From IMG/VR virus record IMGVR_UViG_3300034407_000723, positions 1 to 22,401 of that record: 22,401 bases of DNA; one strand, given 5' to 3'. A program made the translations under genes and the position numbers. The notes beneath the pieces were generated by a model. It was not told where the DNA came from and did no database searches. It saw nothing but the letters and a program-made list of their open reading frames with translations. The first letter of the stretch is position 1. Every line of letters starts with the position of its first letter. Below are positions 5,982 through 13,166 of this stretch, piece by piece. This DNA comes from a virus.

Positions 5982-6208
5982 TAGTATCAGAACTTCCGAT
6001 ACTTGAAATAATCTGCTCACTCAGTGCATGTGTGTCAGTGTACTTGTACGGAAACGGATCACTGAAAGCACCGTTGTTTGGTATATGCTCCCAAGTTTTT
6101 TGGTGGGCATGGACGATCCAAGAGGGTCTATACTTTATGATGGTACTGAATGTGGTAATGACATTAACACATATTAGAAACATAATTAAAATGAAAGGGA
6201 GATCATGA
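5978..6208 (+). CDS. Small integral membrane protein, unknown function
   Basis: A 76-aa hydrophobic protein with two or three predicted membrane segments (about residues 5-24, 31-48 and 48-66) and a basic tail RNIIKMKGRS that should face the cytoplasm. The middle, YGNGSLKAPLFGICSQVFWWAWT, has the Gly-Asn, aromatic-rich look of a half-unit of PnuC- or SemiSWEET-like small transporters. This is only a resemblance in style. Overlaps at both ends (ATGA) show it is translated with DUF3310 and the RNR. Function unknown. Confidence 0.7.
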   Translation: MIVSELPILEIICSLSACVSVYLYGNGSLKAPLFGICSQVFWWAWTIQEGLYFMMVLNVVMTLTHIRNIIKMKGRS

Positions 6209-8133
6209 CGACATTACCAACTGTTTACCAACAATTTATACACAAATCTAGATATGCTAGATGGTTACCAGAAGAAAAGAGAAGAGAGGAATGGCACGAA
6301 ACTGTAAGTCGGTACTTTGATTTCTTTAAACAACAACTAAAAAAGAATTGTGACTATGATTTAGATAAAAAAACTATGGACTATTTATCTAATAAAGTCA
6401 TGAAGTTAGATGTCATGCCTTCAATGAGGGCACTGATGACTGCGGGCCCAGCCTTGGAAAAAGAAAACATAGCTGGGTATAATTGTTCTTATGTTCCAGT
6501 AGATCACCCAAAAGCTTTTGATGAAATATTATATGTACTTATGTGCGGGACGGGAGTTGGCTTTAGTGTTGAGAAAAAATATACCAGAAATTTGCCTAGT
6601 GTTGCTGATGAGTTTCACAATACAGAGACTGTTATTATGGTCAGAGACTCCAAGCTTGGTTGGGCAAAAGCATTTAGGGAAATCATTACACTACTGTATG
6701 CCGGGCAAATCCCAAGGTGGGATGTATCTAACGTGCGACCATCAGGAGCAAGACTTAACACTTTCGGCGGCCGAGCTTCTGGACCTGCACCTCTCGTCGA
6801 CCTCTTTAACTTCGCCATCGAAACCTTTACTAAAGCGAAAGGCAGACAACTAACACCACTTGAGTGTCATGATCTTGTCTGTAAAGTAGGGGAGATTGTT
6901 GTTGTCGGAGGAGTAAGACGTTCGGCTATGATTAGTTTATCAGACCTTGATGATAGAGACATGAGAGATGCAAAGTCTGGTGAGTGGTATAGAGTTGAGG
7001 CACAACGTGCGCTATCAAATAACTCTGCCGTATACGAAACCAAGCCAGATAACATCGGAACTTTTATGGAAGAATGGTTAGCGCTATATAAATCTGGTAG
7101 TGGTGAACGCGGTATCTTTAACAGACAAGCCTCAAAGAAAGTTGCATCACGTAATAAAAGAAGAGACGCTGACTTTGAGTTCGGAACTAATCCGTGTTCG
7201 GAAATAATTTTACAACCTTTCCAATTTTGTAACTTATCCGAAGTAGTGGTACGTGAGGGCGATAAAGAAGAAGACTTACTAGATAAGGTTGAAGCGGCTA
7301 CTATACTTGGTACTATGCAAGCTACCTTAACAAACTTTAAATATCTACGAAGACAATGGAAAGATGCAACAGAGAAAGAAAGATTACTCGGAGTATCTTT
7401 AACTGGTATCATGGATCATAAAATATTATCTGGAGATATTTATAACAAAGCTGTACTAACAGAGTTGCTTGTGAAGTTAAAAGATAAGGCAGTAGCTGTT
7501 AATAAGATATGGTCTAAACGATTTGGTATCAACCAAGCTACGGCTATTACTTGTGTTAAACCATCAGGTACAGTATCACAATTAGTTAATGCTGCATCTG
7601 GTATACATGCAAGGCACAATGATTATTACATTCGTAGAGTTAGAGGAGACAAGAAAGATCCACTAACACAATTCTTACAATCTCAGAACATACCAATAGA
7701 AGACTGTGTTATGAAACCAGATTCTACATCTGTCTTTTCATTTGTAGAGAAAGCACCAAGTGGTTGTATAACTCGTAATAAACGTACGGCTATAGAACAA
7801 TTAGACCATTGGTTAGCTTATGCTAAACATTGGTGCGAGCACAAACCAAGTGTAACTATATCAGTTAACGAAGATGAGTGGCTTGGTGTGGCTGATTGGT
7901 GTTGGAAAAACTTCGATGATCTTAGTGGTATATCTTTCTTACCTAACTTCGGACATGTGTATCAACAAGCACCGTATGAAGATATAGATGAAATAAAATA
8001 TCACAAGTTAAAAAAGAACCAACCAAATAAAATTAACTGGAATGAACTAGCACTGTATGAACAAGAGGATCACACCAAGTCCTCCCAAACTCTTGCATGC
8101 AGTGCTGGGTCATGTGAGGTTGTAGATGTATAA
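6205..8133 (+). CDS. Class II (adenosylcobalamin-dependent) ribonucleotide reductase, monomeric type
   Basis: Makes deoxyribonucleotides from ribonucleotides for phage DNA synthesis, using a B12-derived radical. The 642-aa protein shows the catalytic set of the Lactobacillus-type monomeric enzyme: redox-pair cysteines C94 (YNCSYVPV) and C342 (FQFCNLSE), N329/C331/E333 in TNPCSE with C331 as the thiyl-radical residue, and a swinging C-terminal pair C632-x4-C637. CVKPSGTVSQLVNAASGIH is the usual phosphate-binding P-loop-like strand. No class I metal-radical subunit is nearby, in agreement with class II. It needs cobalamin from host or sea water. Start overlaps the upstream gene and the 3' end overlaps the oxygenase by 8 nt. 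Confidence 0.95.
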   Translation: MTTLPTVYQQFIHKSRYARWLPEEKRREEWHETVSRYFDFFKQQLKKNCDYDLDKKTMDYLSNKVMKLDVMPSMRALMTAGPALEKENIAGYNCSYVPVDHPKAFDEILYVLMCGTGVGFSVEKKYTRNLPSVADEFHNTETVIMVRDSKLGWAKAFREIITLLYAGQIPRWDVSNVRPSGARLNTFGGRASGPAPLVDLFNFAIETFTKAKGRQLTPLECHDLVCKVGEIVVVGGVRRSAMISLSDLDDRDMRDAKSGEWYRVEAQRALSNNSAVYETKPDNIGTFMEEWLALYKSGSGERGIFNRQASKKVASRNKRRDADFEFGTNPCSEIILQPFQFCNLSEVVVREGDKEEDLLDKVEAATILGTMQATLTNFKYLRRQWKDATEKERLLGVSLTGIMDHKILSGDIYNKAVLTELLVKLKDKAVAVNKIWSKRFGINQATAITCVKPSGTVSQLVNAASGIHARHNDYYIRRVRGDKKDPLTQFLQSQNIPIEDCVMKPDSTSVFSFVEKAPSGCITRNKRTAIEQLDHWLAYAKHWCEHKPSVTISVNEDEWLGVADWCWKNFDDLSGISFLPNFGHVYQQAPYEDIDEIKYHKLKKNQPNKINWNELALYEQEDHTKSSQTLACSAGSCEVVDV

Positions 8134-8692
8134 AACATTTATAACTATACCGAAAGCTGTTCCGATAAAGTTATGTGATGAGATGGTAAAAGAATCACCA
8201 GATTATTCGGAACAGTTGGCTGGTGTCATGTGGAAAAAAGAGGCGGACTTAAAGAAAGACAGAAACTCTAAAGTTAGATGGTATCCTCTTGAGCATTGGA
8301 TTGTTCCTAAGTTATGTGAAGTTGCATCGCAAGTAAACAAACAAGATTATGGTTTCGATGTGACTAACTTACAGTGCCCTCAGTTTACTGAGTATACAAA
8401 AGGACAACACTACCAATGGCACAGAGATATATACCCACCAGAGATGGATGGACCATACCCAGGACTAGTGCGAAAGTTATCTATGATTGTACAGTTATCT
8501 AACTTCGAGGATTACAAAGGTGGTATCTTACAAATTAAAAATATGGACGGTAAGATAGAACCGATTGAAGGATTCAAAGATAAAGGTGATATGATTATCT
8601 TCCCATCTTTTTATTTACACAGAATAAAAGCAGTAACAGAAGGAACACGACACAGTTTAGTGTGTTGGTTCATGGGGCCACCGTTTAGATAA
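8126..8692 (+). CDS. 2OG-Fe(II) oxygenase, prolyl-4-hydroxylase-like
   Basis: A 188-aa dioxygenase that would use 2-oxoglutarate, O2 and Fe(II) to hydroxylate an unknown substrate. The double-stranded beta-helix fold is shown by the iron triad H99-x-D101 (in YQWHRD) and H165 (SFYLHRI), and by R175 (TEGTRHSLV) for 2-oxoglutarate. FPSFYLHRIKAVTEGTRHSLVCWF is the usual C-terminal signature, broken here only for reference (H165, R175). Such genes are frequent in marine phages, with proposed targets from proteins to sugars or nucleobases. Context before a cupin and a nucleotidyltransferase leans toward sugar or surface chemistry, as inference only. A TAATG overlap leads into the next small gene. 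Confidence 0.9.
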   Translation: MYKTFITIPKAVPIKLCDEMVKESPDYSEQLAGVMWKKEADLKKDRNSKVRWYPLEHWIVPKLCEVASQVNKQDYGFDVTNLQCPQFTEYTKGQHYQWHRDIYPPEMDGPYPGLVRKLSMIVQLSNFEDYKGGILQIKNMDGKIEPIEGFKDKGDMIIFPSFYLHRIKAVTEGTRHSLVCWFMGPPFR

Positions 8693-8781
8693 TGGATAAA
8701 TTCTTGTGGGGACTTCTTAAATTTTCATTATATGTATTAGCTATACAGTGGATATGTATTTTTATGGCTTCTATTGTATGA
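8692..8781 (+). CDS. 29-residue single-span membrane peptide
   Basis: A very small reading frame fills the whole space between the oxygenase and the cupin. It starts in a TAATG overlap with the oxygenase stop and ends in an ATGA overlap with the cupin start. The product (MDKFLWGLLKFSLYVLA followed by IQWICIFMASIV) is a short charged head plus about 24 hydrophobic residues, enough for one membrane helix. Exact joining at both ends is the pattern of the real genes in this operon, which supports translation. Function unknown; a small membrane regulator or a coupling leader is possible. Confidence 0.6.
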   Translation: MDKFLWGLLKFSLYVLAIQWICIFMASIV

Positions 8782-9128
8782 AAGATTTAGTAGTACGACC
8801 ATGGGGAACATATCGTGTGCTAAAATCTACACCAAAAATGGTTGTAAAGATATTACATGTGTATCCAGGTAAGGCAATGTCTGTTCAATATCATAAATAT
8901 AGAAATGAGCACTGGAAAATACTTGAAGGCGAAGTAACGGCCCTCATAGATGAGCACTGGTGGACGTTTCTACCTGGCCATAGAGTTTATATCCCAAAAA
9001 ATACTGTTCATTGTGTACGAGCTTCTAAGGGCCATATAACGATATTCGAGGTTTGGGAGGGTGAAAAACTAGATGAAAACGATATAATAAGGATACATCA
9101 TGATTATAGTAGTGAGTGGAGGGTTTGA
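8778..9128 (+). CDS. Cupin, ManC-type mannose-6-phosphate isomerase-like domain
   Basis: A 116-aa stand-alone version of the C-terminal cupin of bifunctional ManC/type II phosphomannose isomerases. It shows RPWGTY at residues 7-12, metal-site residues Q37-x-H39 in SVQYHKYRNEHW with E44 and H45, the EGEVTALID strand, YIPKNTVHC with H78, and EVWEGEKLDENDIIRIHHDY, all typical of the family. It may isomerise a sugar phosphate or bind a sugar nucleotide. The start at 8778 is preferred over 8748 because it begins the RPWG module and overlaps the preceding small gene as ATGA. It overlaps the nucleotidyltransferase by 29 nt. Confidence 0.85.
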   Translation: MKDLVVRPWGTYRVLKSTPKMVVKILHVYPGKAMSVQYHKYRNEHWKILEGEVTALIDEHWWTFLPGHRVYIPKNTVHCVRASKGHITIFEVWEGEKLDENDIIRIHHDYSSEWRV

Positions 9129-9525
9129 TCCTCTACATTCTGGGCATATAAATATGTTCAAACAAGCTTATGAGTTCGGAACTGTGTGGGCAATCGTTAA
9201 TACAGACGAATGGCTACAAAAAAAGAAAGGTTATAACTTATTAAGCTACGACGAACGTGAGCTTGTAGTAAGTTCAAACAAATATATAGACAAAGTTATC
9301 AAAGCAAAAGATGATGACGATACTGTAGTAAATAATTTAAAAGAGTTTGTTAAGAACGATATGGATTTTGCTTTTGCTAACGGTGGCGATCGTATACCTA
9401 CATCTACACCAGAGATGACATATTGTCTTAAACATAACATACCGATGCTATTTAATATTGGTGGGACTAAGACTAAATCTTCTTCAGATATTGTTAGAAA
9501 TTTACTTGACCAAGCTACTAAATAA
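9100..9525 (+). CDS. Cytidylyltransferase-like nucleotidyltransferase (TagD/HldE-C type)
   Basis: A 141-aa Rossmann-type nucleotidyltransferase expected to activate a small phosphorylated sugar or polyol with CTP or ATP. Seen are GGFDPLHSGH (the HxGH nucleotide-binding site, H13 and H16), NTDEWLQKKKG, a YDERE helix start, FANGGDR and the C-terminal KTKSSSDIVR, which matches the ISSSxxR phosphate-binding motif. Substrate cannot be read from sequence; glycerol-3-phosphate cytidylyltransferase and heptose-phosphate adenylyltransferase are the nearest named relatives. A good AAGGA site lies 6 nt before the ATG. It is the last gene of the plus-strand operon and is followed by a terminator. Confidence 0.88.
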   Translation: MIIVVSGGFDPLHSGHINMFKQAYEFGTVWAIVNTDEWLQKKKGYNLLSYDERELVVSSNKYIDKVIKAKDDDDTVVNNLKEFVKNDMDFAFANGGDRIPTSTPEMTYCLKHNIPMLFNIGGTKTKSSSDIVRNLLDQATK

Positions 9526-9559: not shown

Positions 9560-9602
9560 AATCCCTAGGGGTGGGTAATGTAAACCTCTAGGGATTTTTT
9601 TT
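9560..9602 (+). terminator. Strong intrinsic terminator of the plus-strand operon
   Basis: AATCCCTAGGGGT (9560-9572) pairs with ACCTCTAGGGATT (9584-9596) in a 13-bp stem with one G-U pair and an 11-base loop, followed by an unbroken run of eight T (9595-9602). It lies 35 bases after the nucleotidyltransferase stop. There is no matching T run on the minus-strand side, so it should act mainly on plus-strand transcription. Confidence 0.93.
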
Positions 9603-9702
9603 GCCCAAACAAATTATCGGACATCTATACCCTAACAAGTTTCTTTTATTACTATTTGGAAATCTACTACCTTTAGGAGGTCTGTGAAGAATTGTAATGG
9701 GT

Positions 9703-9718
9703 GGGGCTGATTCGCCCC
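9703..9718. other. GC-rich hairpin just beyond the pqqA-like gene
   Basis: GGGGC (9703-9707) and GCCCC (9714-9718) form a tight stem around a 6-base loop. On the minus strand it begins 6 bases after the pqqA-like stop and could block 3' exonucleases or pause RNA polymerase, but no T run follows. On the plus strand it is followed by a broken T-rich stretch. The rest of the 9603-9723 interval holds nothing I can identify. Confidence 0.4.
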
Positions 9719-9723
9719 TTCCC

Positions 9724-9798
9724 TTATTTTTCGGCACAAGCATAGCTATTGATTTCAAGACCAATAGATACAACCGTGATTGATGGTTTAGACCACAT
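9724..9798 (-). CDS. pqqA: PqqA-like precursor peptide of coenzyme PQQ (phage-borne, orphan)
   Basis: A 24-residue peptide encoded in the convergent gap, starting MWSKPSITVV and ending GLEINSYACAEK. PqqA is the ribosomal substrate from which PQQ is built: PqqE, a radical SAM enzyme, with the chaperone PqqD, links the glutamate to the tyrosine of an E-x3-Y motif. Here E15 and Y19 have exactly that spacing and the same numbering as in Klebsiella PqqA. The MWxKP head, the G-L-E step and the length (PqqA is usually 22-29 aa) match too, and the INSY tail resembles alphaproteobacterial forms as I recall them. GGAG lies 6 nt before the ATG (minus strand 9808-9805), an ideal ribosome site. No pqqB, C, D or E is in the window, so maturation would need host enzymes. 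It is last in the late operon after the holin. Confidence 0.85.
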   Translation of the reverse strand: MWSKPSITVVSIGLEINSYACAEK

Positions 9799-9809
9799 AA
9801 TCAACTCCA

Positions 9810-9862
9810 TTTGTTAAAGGTTAACAAACAGTGCTGGTTGCCTTAACGACCGCAGCCCACTG
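9810..9862 (-). promoter_or_regulatory. Two-hairpin leader of the pqqA-like gene
   Basis: Read on the minus strand, a hairpin with outer stem CAGTG/CACTG and inner CTG/CAG pairing (9829-9862) is followed at once by a perfect inverted repeat, TTTGTTAA-CCT-TTAACAAA (9828-9810). That repeat ends one base before the GGAG ribosome site. It could shape translation or mRNA stability, or the second repeat could be a protein-binding operator. The structures are seen; a role is inferred. Confidence 0.5.
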
Positions 9863-9868
9863 ATTATT

Positions 9869-9876: not shown

Positions 9877-10287
9877 TTACTTCTTCATGTTCTCTCTTGC
9901 AACCCCTTTTGATTTTTCAAAAGAACGTAAGCCTCCCATTCCGAGTAAGGCTATCGTTAAAGAAATAAGTTCACCAGTATCTATAAAGTTTGGCATACTA
10001 ATTTCTGGTGCAAACAAGGCTGTGAACCAAGTCATTAGTGGTAGTATAAAGAAGTTTACAAATAAACCTATTGCGCAGACCCACATGATTGCTGGTCGTG
10101 CTCCTGCTACAAACATGCTTGGATGTTTAGCTGCCTCGGTGTTAGCTTTGGCTTGTTCTTTTGCTAAAGCATTCGCATGCTTCTGTGACATGGTAGCTAT
10201 GTCGTGAGCTAGACGTGCTTTTTGGTCTTTGTCTTCTATGAATTTATCAAGTAGCCCAGTAACTGGACCGATGAGTGCTGTTAACAT
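9877..10287 (-). CDS. Holin of the 3-TM family (GTA/phage holin-like)
   Basis: A 136-aa membrane protein expected to open the inner membrane for lysis. It has the layout of the 3-TM holin family: N-terminal LIGPVTGLLDKFI, a charged KDQKARLAHDIATM helix rich in Ala/Lys/Gln, then AGARPAIMWVCAIGLFVN (about 61-78) entering the first long membrane segments, and a final hydrophobic stretch ending LLGMGGLRSFEKSKGV. The RPAxxW and LGMGGLRSxEKxKGV blocks are the family signatures. Its ATG overlaps the preceding stop as TAATG. No endolysin is found beside it in this window, so the lysin is encoded elsewhere or not recognised. Confidence 0.88.
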   Translation of the reverse strand: MLTALIGPVTGLLDKFIEDKDQKARLAHDIATMSQKHANALAKEQAKANTEAAKHPSMFVAGARPAIMWVCAIGLFVNFFILPLMTWFTALFAPEISMPNFIDTGELISLTIALLGMGGLRSFEKSKGVARENMKK

Positions 10288-10646: not shown

Positions 10647-11551
10647 TTGCTTTCCAATAAATGTTTATATGGTAGACCATGAGCCATTTCTGTTACAGTC
10701 CACTGTGTGTAAGCTAAGTCGTTAAACAGTTGTTGTCTATCTTCCATCTTTGGATTCTCTACACAACTAATATCGTGGGAGCTGATTGGATAAGCAAAGT
10801 TAAGATTGCTAGGTGTAATAACAGGGACACCAGCAAGCAGACTATCCACAGTACCTCCCGACGAGTATCCAACAGTTGCCCAAGCGCCTTGCAAGTCTTT
10901 ATAAATTGGGTCTTTATTTCCATAAACCATAGTAACATTTTCTTGTCCATCTACAAACTCCTCAAATTTAGACAGATCGTAAGACGATATAAGAGGATGC
11001 ATCCGTACTCTTATAGGTCTCTTCGATACCTTTTTACATTTAATTATTTCTTCTCGTAACCATTGTAATATATCTACGTTAGCCGTAGCTGCATCACCTG
11101 GTAGCTGCATCAAGAATAGTATATAGTCTCCATCTTTTCTCCAGTCCTTAATCCCAAGATCAAGGTCTGTTTTAATTATACCCCATCTATCTTTTTCAGA
11201 ATCTTTATTGTTGAAGGTGCCTAACGTATTCATGTAGTGTCCCTTACCAACACGATAATACTTATGATCTTCTGTTATTGTTCTACCTAGTAGTGGTGTC
11301 TCAATAACAAGTAGGTCACCTTTGTGTCTGTTAACAACACTATTCTTTAATAGATGATGAGACGTACCTCTATCTTTCCAAGATCCAAATATAATAGCTA
11401 CGTCACACTCCATATATTCTGTTGAGTTAGATAAGAATACTAGGTCGTCTGTTGTTTCTCTAATACCATGAGTCATGGCTGTTAATGTATTTACATGTGG
11501 TTGATGTACAGCCGAGTTTAAAAATACACCGACTACTTTACGGGATGTCAT
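10643..11551 (-). CDS. GT-B-type glycosyltransferase, capsule-biosynthesis-like
   Basis: A 302-aa protein with the two-Rossmann look of GT-B enzymes. The C-terminal half carries RPIRVRMHPLI, then GAWATVGYSSGGTVDSLLAGVP with VITPSNLNFAYP. A basic -HP- strand followed by a Ser-rich nucleotide-phosphate loop and an A/L-x2-G-x-P helix is the pattern of KpsS/KpsC-like capsule enzymes and CDP-glycerol glycerophosphotransferase relatives. The N-terminal half has weaker matches (VVGVFLNSAV, DVAIIFGSW). The second family name is of interest because the early operon encodes a cytidylyltransferase-like protein that could make a CDP-activated donor; that link is inference. It overlaps the upstream gene by 14 nt. 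Confidence 0.65.
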   Translation of the reverse strand: MTSRKVVGVFLNSAVHQPHVNTLTAMTHGIRETTDDLVFLSNSTEYMECDVAIIFGSWKDRGTSHHLLKNSVVNRHKGDLLVIETPLLGRTITEDHKYYRVGKGHYMNTLGTFNNKDSEKDRWGIIKTDLDLGIKDWRKDGDYILFLMQLPGDAATANVDILQWLREEIIKCKKVSKRPIRVRMHPLISSYDLSKFEEFVDGQENVTMVYGNKDPIYKDLQGAWATVGYSSGGTVDSLLAGVPVITPSNLNFAYPISSHDISCVENPKMEDRQQLFNDLAYTQWTVTEMAHGLPYKHLLESK

Positions 11552-13166
11552 CGAATAACTCCTTGTAACTTAATTGTTTATTTTTATCTTTAAGACCATC
11601 TTCCCACAGTGCTTTGACAAGACCGTCACCGTGCACGTGGATATCTATATCGACTTCTTCTCTTTGCATAAGTTTTTCAAAGTCTTGGGCTTGAGCTAGT
11701 AACTCACCTGTTGTCCAGTGTGGTTCGTTCTCTTCGCCAACAGATACCTTTAGCCATTTCTTTCTCCCATCCTCGGCTAACTCATCCTTATTTTTTGGCT
11801 CGCCCTCAATTGATGAATCAAATCCGAACAAGTGTACGGATCTAAAACCCAATGTATGTAGCATACCAATAGTTCTCATACCTGCGCAAGTGCCACCAGT
11901 AATTAATGTTTTGTTCTTAAAATAATCCCAACCTTCAATTGCATTACAGTAGGCATCCCAAGCTACAATTTTACATTTATGTTCTAATAGATGTGTAACT
12001 ACTTCTGGATTAGACATGGTTGCTACCCAATACATTACATCTTTATGTGGTTTAGCTAGTAAATCTTTACGTACATAACCGTGTGTAGATTTTTCGTTGA
12101 ATGGTCTTGGATCAAGTATTGTACAAGCCCACGGTATTACACCATTATCTATTAGTGTATTGTGACTATGTTTAACACACACAACTTTTATACCTTTAGC
12201 TTGCATCTCTTTTATTTTGTCAAGGTCTTTCATAAGAGATGGACCAGCTGATGCAATGATAACTTCTTCGTTGTTCCATTTACATCGTTCTAGTTTAGAG
12301 TCAACTCTTTTAGAATTAGTTATGATATTCATACGGATATCTTCTATCGGCATACAATCTTGTGGTGTAACTACAATTGGTTTCTTAGTTGAGCCTTCTT
12401 CCTTCTGCGCTTGTACTTTAGTATTTGGCGGTTCTTGACTAGCTTGTTGTTGTTTGAACTTCAACATACCTTTGTTGTGATACATGTGTCGGACTAACGG
12501 TGAGGCCTCAAATGCATTTAGATCGGCACAGTGTGGTGAAAGGTTATGTACCTTGAGACCATGCGCTTGATGTAAATTAATTATACGTGTCAATACAAAA
12601 GCATCATGCCACTCACGATAGTTATACACTTCACCCGTGTTCCACACTCCAAACATATCAGCAAACAAAGCCTTGTTGAGATCAGACATACGTAAAGCTA
12701 AGAACCCCGCCTCGATATAGTTGACAGCCGTTCGACCGAGTACAGATATATCGACATCTTCTGGGATCCACTTTTGGATATCATCCATAGTTACCTTTTT
12801 GTACGTAACGGTATCAGCATCAAGCCATATACCGACATCACACTTAGGCGCATTCTTAACAAAGAAGTCATACTCAGTGTATACTTTATAGGCCCACCTC
12901 TTTACATCGGTTCTCCAGTTAGGGTCATCTTTCTTATCTTTATGTTTAGCAAAGAACTGACAGAGTTCTTCTGATTGATTCATAAGGTCAATGAACTCGA
13001 CTCTATTAGGGTCATAGTTCTGTAGACCACGTTCAGGCCAGTCATTATAATATACATATAATTTAGTTTCTTTAGGCCAGTATTTTACGAAACTGTCTAT
13101 ACATTCTTTTGCATAGACATTCCAATGGTCGCCGCGAAACGACGTTACAAGTGAAAATGTAGGCAT
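11538..13166 (-). CDS. Two-domain protein: GT-A glycosyltransferase fused to a DUF115 (Maf-like) domain
   Basis: The N-terminal part (about 1-235) is a GT-A fold: FSLVTSFRGDHW at the start, then IWLDADTV with the metal-binding D116-x-D118, followed by GFLALRM and REWHDAFVL. A hydrophilic linker rich in Q/K/E/P (about 236-270) leads to a C-terminal domain (about 295-520) with EVIIASAGPSL (307-309 AGP), KVVCVKHSHNTLIDNGVIPW, ILDPRPF, GGTCAGMRTIGMLHTLGF and HLFGFDSS. These are marks of DUF115, found in Maf-type flagellin glycosyltransferases and MptE-like pyrophosphokinase relatives. The 542-aa fusion would combine sugar transfer with a nucleotide-sugar or nonulosonate-related domain. Substrate and target are unknown. 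It overlaps the upstream gene by 22 nt. Confidence 0.8.
   Translation of the reverse strand: MPTFSLVTSFRGDHWNVYAKECIDSFVKYWPKETKLYVYYNDWPERGLQNYDPNRVEFIDLMNQSEELCQFFAKHKDKKDDPNWRTDVKRWAYKVYTEYDFFVKNAPKCDVGIWLDADTVTYKKVTMDDIQKWIPEDVDISVLGRTAVNYIEAGFLALRMSDLNKALFADMFGVWNTGEVYNYREWHDAFVLTRIINLHQAHGLKVHNLSPHCADLNAFEASPLVRHMYHNKGMLKFKQQQASQEPPNTKVQAQKEEGSTKKPIVVTPQDCMPIEDIRMNIITNSKRVDSKLERCKWNNEEVIIASAGPSLMKDLDKIKEMQAKGIKVVCVKHSHNTLIDNGVIPWACTILDPRPFNEKSTHGYVRKDLLAKPHKDVMYWVATMSNPEVVTHLLEHKCKIVAWDAYCNAIEGWDYFKNKTLITGGTCAGMRTIGMLHTLGFRSVHLFGFDSSIEGEPKNKDELAEDGRKKWLKVSVGEENEPHWTTGELLAQAQDFEKLMQREEVDIDIHVHGDGLVKALWEDGLKDKNKQLSYKELFDDIP

Follow-up and report, generated by a model that had tools for sequence, protein, structure and literature searches.

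The window, by which we mean the whole stretch of 22,401 nucleotides analysed here, contains a convergent gap between two operons, and a first-pass annotation made from the sequence had proposed that the minus strand of this gap encodes a peptide of 24 amino acids. This ORF indeed translates to MWSKPSITVVSIGLEINSYACAEK and is the last gene of a minus-strand operon, downstream of a holin gene that ends at 9877; the opposing plus-strand operon ends at 9525. The region is organized as follows:

9100..9525, plus strand: cytidylyltransferase-like gene, the last of the convergent plus-strand operon (PF01467)
9563..9605, plus strand: hairpin and T8 tract resembling a terminator of the plus-strand operon (sequence; fold z -2.6)
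9699..9723, minus strand: strong GC hairpin immediately behind the stop codon of pqqA (fold -16 kcal/mol, z -3.9)
9724..9798, minus strand: pqqA, encoding the 24-aa PQQ precursor peptide with its E15-x3-Y19 pair (PF08042, 22.5 bits; TIGR02107, 29.6 bits)
9805..9808, minus strand: Shine-Dalgarno sequence GGAG, ending 6 nt before the pqqA ATG (sequence)
9824..9867, minus strand: leader RNA of three stacked short stems (covariance model R1, 51.9 bits, with the window sequence in the model; covariation)
9877..10287, minus strand: holin gene, upstream of pqqA in the same operon (phrog_3427, E 8e-31)

Both the E15-x3-Y19 pair and the GGAG 6 nt before the ATG are as the annotation had described them from the sequence. 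An in-frame ATG that overlaps the GGAG, as part of ATGGAG, is not a better start, because the homologous leader of a bacterial rpoH gene reads ATCGGAG. The GC hairpin behind the gene has no T-run and may possibly form an mRNA 3′ end. The hairpin at 9563..9605 is missing from the list of a simple terminator scan, its loop being longer than that scan permits.

The PqqA family search that the first-pass annotation had called for confirmed that the ORF encodes a member of this family, with no biosynthetic enzymes nearby. The 24-aa peptide passed the curated cut-offs of both PF08042 (22.5 bits against 21.1) and TIGR02107, the NCBIfam equivalog for PqqA (29.6 bits against 20, E 4.5e-7). Since PF08042 reached 20.3 bits in the whole-record search, slightly below its cut-off of 21.1 (E 2.8e-5), the peptide clears the Pfam threshold only narrowly and the NCBIfam threshold by a wide margin. 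Given the 515 candidate sORF starts (18-44 aa) in the window, chance alone would be expected to yield about 2e-4 NCBIfam hits of such quality. A PqqA-like regular expression had no matches when shuffled viral DNA amounting to 3.5 Mb was scanned. The peptide shares with bacterial PqqA its length, a W near the start, P5 and the G-x-E-x3-Y core, including, as E15 and Y19, the Glu-x3-Tyr pair that becomes PQQ, and its core GLEINSYACAEK is as in HIMB59-type bacterial PqqA. It differs from bacterial PqqA in being phage-encoded without pqqB, pqqC or pqqE and in having a leader RNA, which none of the tested host pqqA genes showed. That the window holds no pqqB, pqqC or pqqE gene had been noted before and was borne out; homologues of PqqB, PqqC, PqqE and XoxF were found neither there nor in 198 other viral loci searched. 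The missing linkage to pqqB-E is not decisive for membership in the family, because bacterial orphan copies of pqqA lack it as well.

Relatives of the window phage were picked without using pqqA, with the gene across the gap (9100-9525) as bait, which gave 14 loci, 10 of them close relatives, and of these 10, 7 span the gap. pqqA is present in 7/7, and the retention of the reading frame, E15 and Y19 with a low dN/dS, proposed earlier as a test of the gene, was found at all seven loci. Eight distinct alleles gave a dN/dS of about 0.16, third positions make up 11 of the 17 variable sites, and W2, K4, P5, G13-E15, Y19 and C21 are unchanged as residues across the alleles of the relatives found with this bait; purifying selection on the window pqqA is supported. 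The gene sits in a genuine phage operon, between the holin and the replication operon, and has the same place in relatives. When holin relatives were compared, pqqA followed the holin directly in all of those at ≥96% identity, and at 90% identity three of four (L010, L012 and L071) had other sequence after the holin and no pqqA there. The ORF is very short and shares DNA with a 61-aa ORF read in a different frame, as might be expected of a chance or relic ORF without function, but two curated models, the Shine-Dalgarno sites, the dN/dS of 0.16, the presence of the gene in unrelated phages and the linked leader RNA all contradict this explanation, which we regard as very improbable.

The annotation had also proposed a search of marine phages, and in a degenerate scan at least 120 marine viral stretches encoded PqqA of the GLEIN[S/C]YAC type. 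Our extracted viral set comprises 127 pqqA ORFs with 78 distinct peptides, in which W and P are invariant throughout, W having been demanded by the extraction and P left free; the window peptide has V where 74 of the 78 have E. An SD-like site precedes 125/127 of the ORFs, the upstream neighbour lies on the same strand in 100/108, and the neighbouring genes are diverse (among them portal, terminase, GroES, T4-type ssDNA-binding protein and holin). PQQ_2 domains were absent from the 39 viral records searched for them. Complete genomes of isolates are among those with a viral pqqA. When a gammaproteobacterial PqqA was used as tblastn query against 50,697 GenBank phage records, the matches were confined to OM43/LD28 methylophages, one metagenome phage from Manatee Spring and one contig labelled Acinetobacter phage MD-2021a (L358, CAKLQF020000010.1). 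The last was rejected, as it has pqqBCD and a radical SAM gene in a host-like operon and looks like bacterial chromosome mislabelled as phage.

At least nine OM43/LD28 methylophage isolates carry pqqA (Venkman, P19250A, MEP301, MEP401, MEP402 and four Melnitz phages). The methylophages MEP431-434 and phIMB624-A, also listed in the taxonomy, did not turn up among the matches and may be absent from the records searched. The ORFs checked are all full length, with an ATG start and an SD-like site before it, and TIGR02107 scored five of the peptides at 34-41 bits. The gene is easily missed, being annotated as PqqA in none of these isolates, where the site is blank or assigned to an opposite-strand hypothetical protein. 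Roseobacter-type PqqA was represented in phages by weak Melnitz matches only, and among GenBank phages the window gap had no DNA match and the window peptide no tblastn match.

Where the first-pass annotation knew of no described phage system of this kind, it has to be corrected. Viral PqqA was published in 2020 for the Lake Baikal methylophage contig VP_266 and proposed to raise the PQQ supply of a methylotroph (PMC7678222), and it is also listed for reservoir viruses (PMC13188868), besides its unannotated presence in the isolated methylophages. VP_266 resembles the window phage in having a phage-encoded PqqA proposed for host PQQ supply, but it represents one freshwater T4-like population with a phage methanol dehydrogenase, whereas here pqqA occurs alone and in marine phages. 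The open-access literature, most subscription journals being outside the search, yielded no report of pqqA spread in marine phages, of pqqA in cultured methylophages or of the leader RNA. Viral PqqA is thus already known, and what is new is the covarying leader RNA at 9824-9867(-).

This structured RNA lies directly upstream of pqqA and had been overlooked by the first-pass annotation. A spacer of about 25 nt separates it from the pqqA start, and it has the sequence CAGTGGRCTGCGGYC-loop-GRCAACCAGCACTG in the window family. In the window its stems read GUG/CAC, CUG/CAG and GUC/GGC, and its unpaired elements are a bulge (GN) and an internal loop (CG/AAC). Across divergent phages both sides change in step, so that compensatory changes are seen in each of the three stems: P1 occurs as GUG/CAC, GAG/CUC or AAG/CUU, P2 as CUG/CAG, CCG/CGG or UCG/CGA, and P3 as GUC/GAC, GUC/GGC, GCC/GGC or AUC/GAU, with the bulge (GN, plain G in three) and the CG/AAC internal loop constant. 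The leader loci before pqqA amount to 76 distinct sequences from at least 164 viral loci. In an alignment of 33 distinct leaders, 91.5% of cells pair, compared with 24-57% when the partners are slid, and the covariation score was reached by 0/500 shuffles. P2 pairing was imposed while the sequences were being collected and P1 and P3 pairing was not; P1 and P3 alone were 94.8% paired, with double changes in 6/7 pairs, and again 0/500 shuffles reached their score. Single-sequence folding of the leader was not significant (z -1.3 to 0.3), so the case for the RNA rests on covariation. A different RNAalifold fold, obtained from the narrow window family alone, was replaced after divergent leaders had been aligned.

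A scan using the RNA alone returned at least 119 stretches with the leader pattern, and among the matches listed pqqA was directly downstream at 84 of 90 new leader sites, the rest being five GC-rich, chance-like sites and one that was cut off. With a looser pattern, 29 sites had pqqA and 75 did not, the 75 being mostly expected by chance, while an unrelated phage hairpin given the same treatment had pqqA downstream at 12/104. The leader is a covariation-backed structure whose nearly exclusive gene partner is pqqA. OM43 phages and many other pqqA phages, mostly of the CYACAE type, have no leader RNA, indicating that a phage pqqA can in some cases do without it. No match to the leader above chance was found among 4227 Rfam families, and matches of the RNA model in other Alphaproteobacteria, at 19-29 bits, were discarded since they looked like chance. 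The unrelated hairpin of the comparison above, GGTG-N4,5-CCTAGYAACAGAA-CACC, stands before some pqqA genes as well (L109, L132, L144, L151, L166, L170, L198 and many of L606-L673); its stems seem to covary, but with pqqA downstream at so few of its sites it was put down as a widespread, general phage element.

Most likely, the leader RNA controls the translation or stability of pqqA in cis. Like the small cis-regulatory RNAs and riboswitches in Rfam, it is a conserved structured 5′ leader with covarying stems near the Shine-Dalgarno sequence of one gene; unlike them, it matches no Rfam family above chance. A speculative proposal, which we consider unlikely, is that the leader belongs to a new and mobile kind of regulatory RNA through which the phage meters PqqA to the PQQ status of the host, perhaps as a riboswitch sensing PQQ or an intermediate of its pathway. 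The word mobile refers to a copy of the leader found before rpoH in a bacterium of the HIMB59 order, in one of 32 genomes (G006, AG-896-A16; 48.7 bits). This copy, at G006:C2:10940-10985 (-) (L564:1400-1560), lies directly before the rpoH gene (TIGR02392, 343 bits) and resembles the phage leader onward through the SD region, while the other 27 rpoH genes retrieved from the order have no leader before them. Its position before rpoH speaks against a purely PQQ-specific role for the RNA.

The same copy ties the window phage family to the HIMB59 order, and an exchange of the leader between such a phage and a HIMB59-order cell is the simplest and a likely explanation, and it supports this host group. 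The 32 HIMB59-order genomes contained no DNA of the window phage family, and the DNA polymerase gave only PolA-like matches there, at 22-26% identity. By DNA polymerase, the closest isolates are SAR11 phages (43% identity); the SAR11 phage HTVC103P had no pqqA in the 49.9 of 54.1 kb examined. The holin was abandoned as a host marker because it is too widespread in Alphaproteobacteria to discriminate.

The PqqA subtype of the window is found in marine Alphaproteobacteria, HIMB59 included, and 31/32 HIMB59-order genomes have PqqA, with 1-5 copies each. In one genome of this order, a pqqA copy heads pqqB, pqqC and pqqE near a PQQ-dependent alcohol dehydrogenase-like gene, the gene names resting on position, PqqC and PqqE family searches and reading of the sequence. 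PqqE and PqqC scored above cut-off in 19/19 alphaproteobacterial genomes tested, from the candidate host group and its relatives. The hosts had been expected to carry the pathway, and from this putative host group pqqC and pqqE are on record. The annotation had named the lack of a model hit, loss of the frame or of the Glu and Tyr residues, and hosts that all lack pqqC-E as evidence against its reading; what we found were model hits, a kept frame with both residues, and pqqC and pqqE in the candidate hosts. Phage and host PqqA seem to be matched in type: GLEINSYACAEK ending in AEK is seen with HIMB59 and CYACAEI/L with other marine Alphaproteobacteria, and OM43 phages carry the type FGFEVTMYVMNK. 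Four peptides are common to the viral and bacterial genome sets, two of them coming only from phage-looking contigs in MAGs. Streamlined HIMB59-order genomes of 1-2 Mb also contain several orphan pqqA genes each, which are scattered among unrelated genes and encode identical or almost identical peptides (L326-L333); the genome in which pqqA heads the operon likewise has such copies elsewhere in its chromosome.

We think it likely that the window gene encodes a genuine PqqA that feeds host PqqB-E and is expressed through the cis-acting leader RNA. Points against this reading are the shortness of a 24-aa match, the V of the window peptide at a position that is mostly E, the lack of phage-family DNA in the HIMB59-order genomes, and the SAR11 hosts of the nearest isolates, one of which had no pqqA in the part examined. 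PqqA would be made at the end of the phage lysis/late operon and would enter the PqqD/PqqE/PqqB/PqqC pathway of the host, in which PQQ would arise by cross-linking of the Glu15 and Tyr19 side chains and their excision, at the cost of one peptide per cofactor. PQQ, and hence the periplasmic PQQ-dependent dehydrogenases, could in this way be kept supplied as host transcription drops while the energy demand of virion production is high, and the conserved structured 5′ leader would govern pqqA in the window family and in many other marine phages. Modification by host enzymes, higher PQQ in infected cells, a benefit to the phage and the role of the RNA are what we infer for this mechanism.

PQQ is made stoichiometrically from PqqA, each molecule of the cofactor using up one of the precursor. 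In Methylovorus MP688 the amount of available PqqA has been described as rate-determining (Ge et al., as cited in PMC11317620), and additional orphan pqqA copies are in use in bacteria (PMC9851590). Taken together, these points make phage PqqA a cheap way to sustain PQQ: as the peptide is a consumed substrate and not an enzyme, a phage with only pqqA could raise or sustain the cofactor for 75 bases of DNA, and since it brings no enzymes, any effect requires spare capacity in host PqqB-E. The orphan or multiple pqqA genes of Methylovorus and Methylorubrum extorquens, as far as they are described in PMC11317620 and PMC9851590, likewise lie off the operon with their own regulation, but they are chromosomal.

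A variant compatible with this supply of PQQ is that host shut-off ends the provision of a consumed precursor and that the phage merely restores it, which fits both the late-operon place with its own leader RNA and the stoichiometric use of PqqA. Such a replacement differs from a boost in degree only; we hold it to be quite possible, at somewhat less than even chances. A peptide that occupies PqqD/PqqE, or is cross-linked but left unprocessed, could instead block host PQQ synthesis, and the phage loci searched do have only the substrate and never the enzymes, while a substrate mimic would need the recognition residues too. However, neither E15 and Y19 nor the core around them varies, as expected of a productive substrate, some phage peptides are identical to those of bacterial genomes (the four in common), and the hosts themselves have additional orphan genes for their own PqqA, which is hard to square with poisoning. 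In view of these extra copies and of the strong constraint on the cross-linked residues and the positions near them, we prefer a productive substrate, and such a decoy appears improbable to us.

The invariant C at Y+2, unlike gammaproteobacterial PqqA, could point to a peptide repurposed for radical SAM cross-linking into a non-PQQ product, e.g., a signal or antimicrobial, and orphan precursors are presumably frequent in other peptide families. Nevertheless, the C-containing core also occurs in marine alphaproteobacterial genomes, once in the pqqA of a pqqB, C, E operon, and OM43 phages have a different, FGFEVTMY-type core without C. What the two cores found in phages share is thus PqqA as such, and repurposing seems a little more improbable still than a decoy. 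The preferred reading, a genuine PqqA supplied to the host pathway, suggests that marine phages may keep host PQQ supply running during infection. Among the processes on which phages of abundant ocean bacteria act, it draws attention to the oxidation of methanol and other small alcohols by PQQ-dependent routes.

Other genes of the window were recorded alongside. Positions 6205-8133 encode a ribonucleotide reductase of the phage, in which an insertion domain of the B12-dependent class (class II; PF21995) was recognized, and 2OG-Fe(II) oxygenase, cupin/mannose-6-phosphate isomerase-like and cytidylyltransferase-like genes follow one another at 8126-9525, a row suggesting sugar or surface modification. 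The minus-strand operon also includes, at 11538-13166, a gene for a 542-aa protein with an MptE-like (PF01973) domain.
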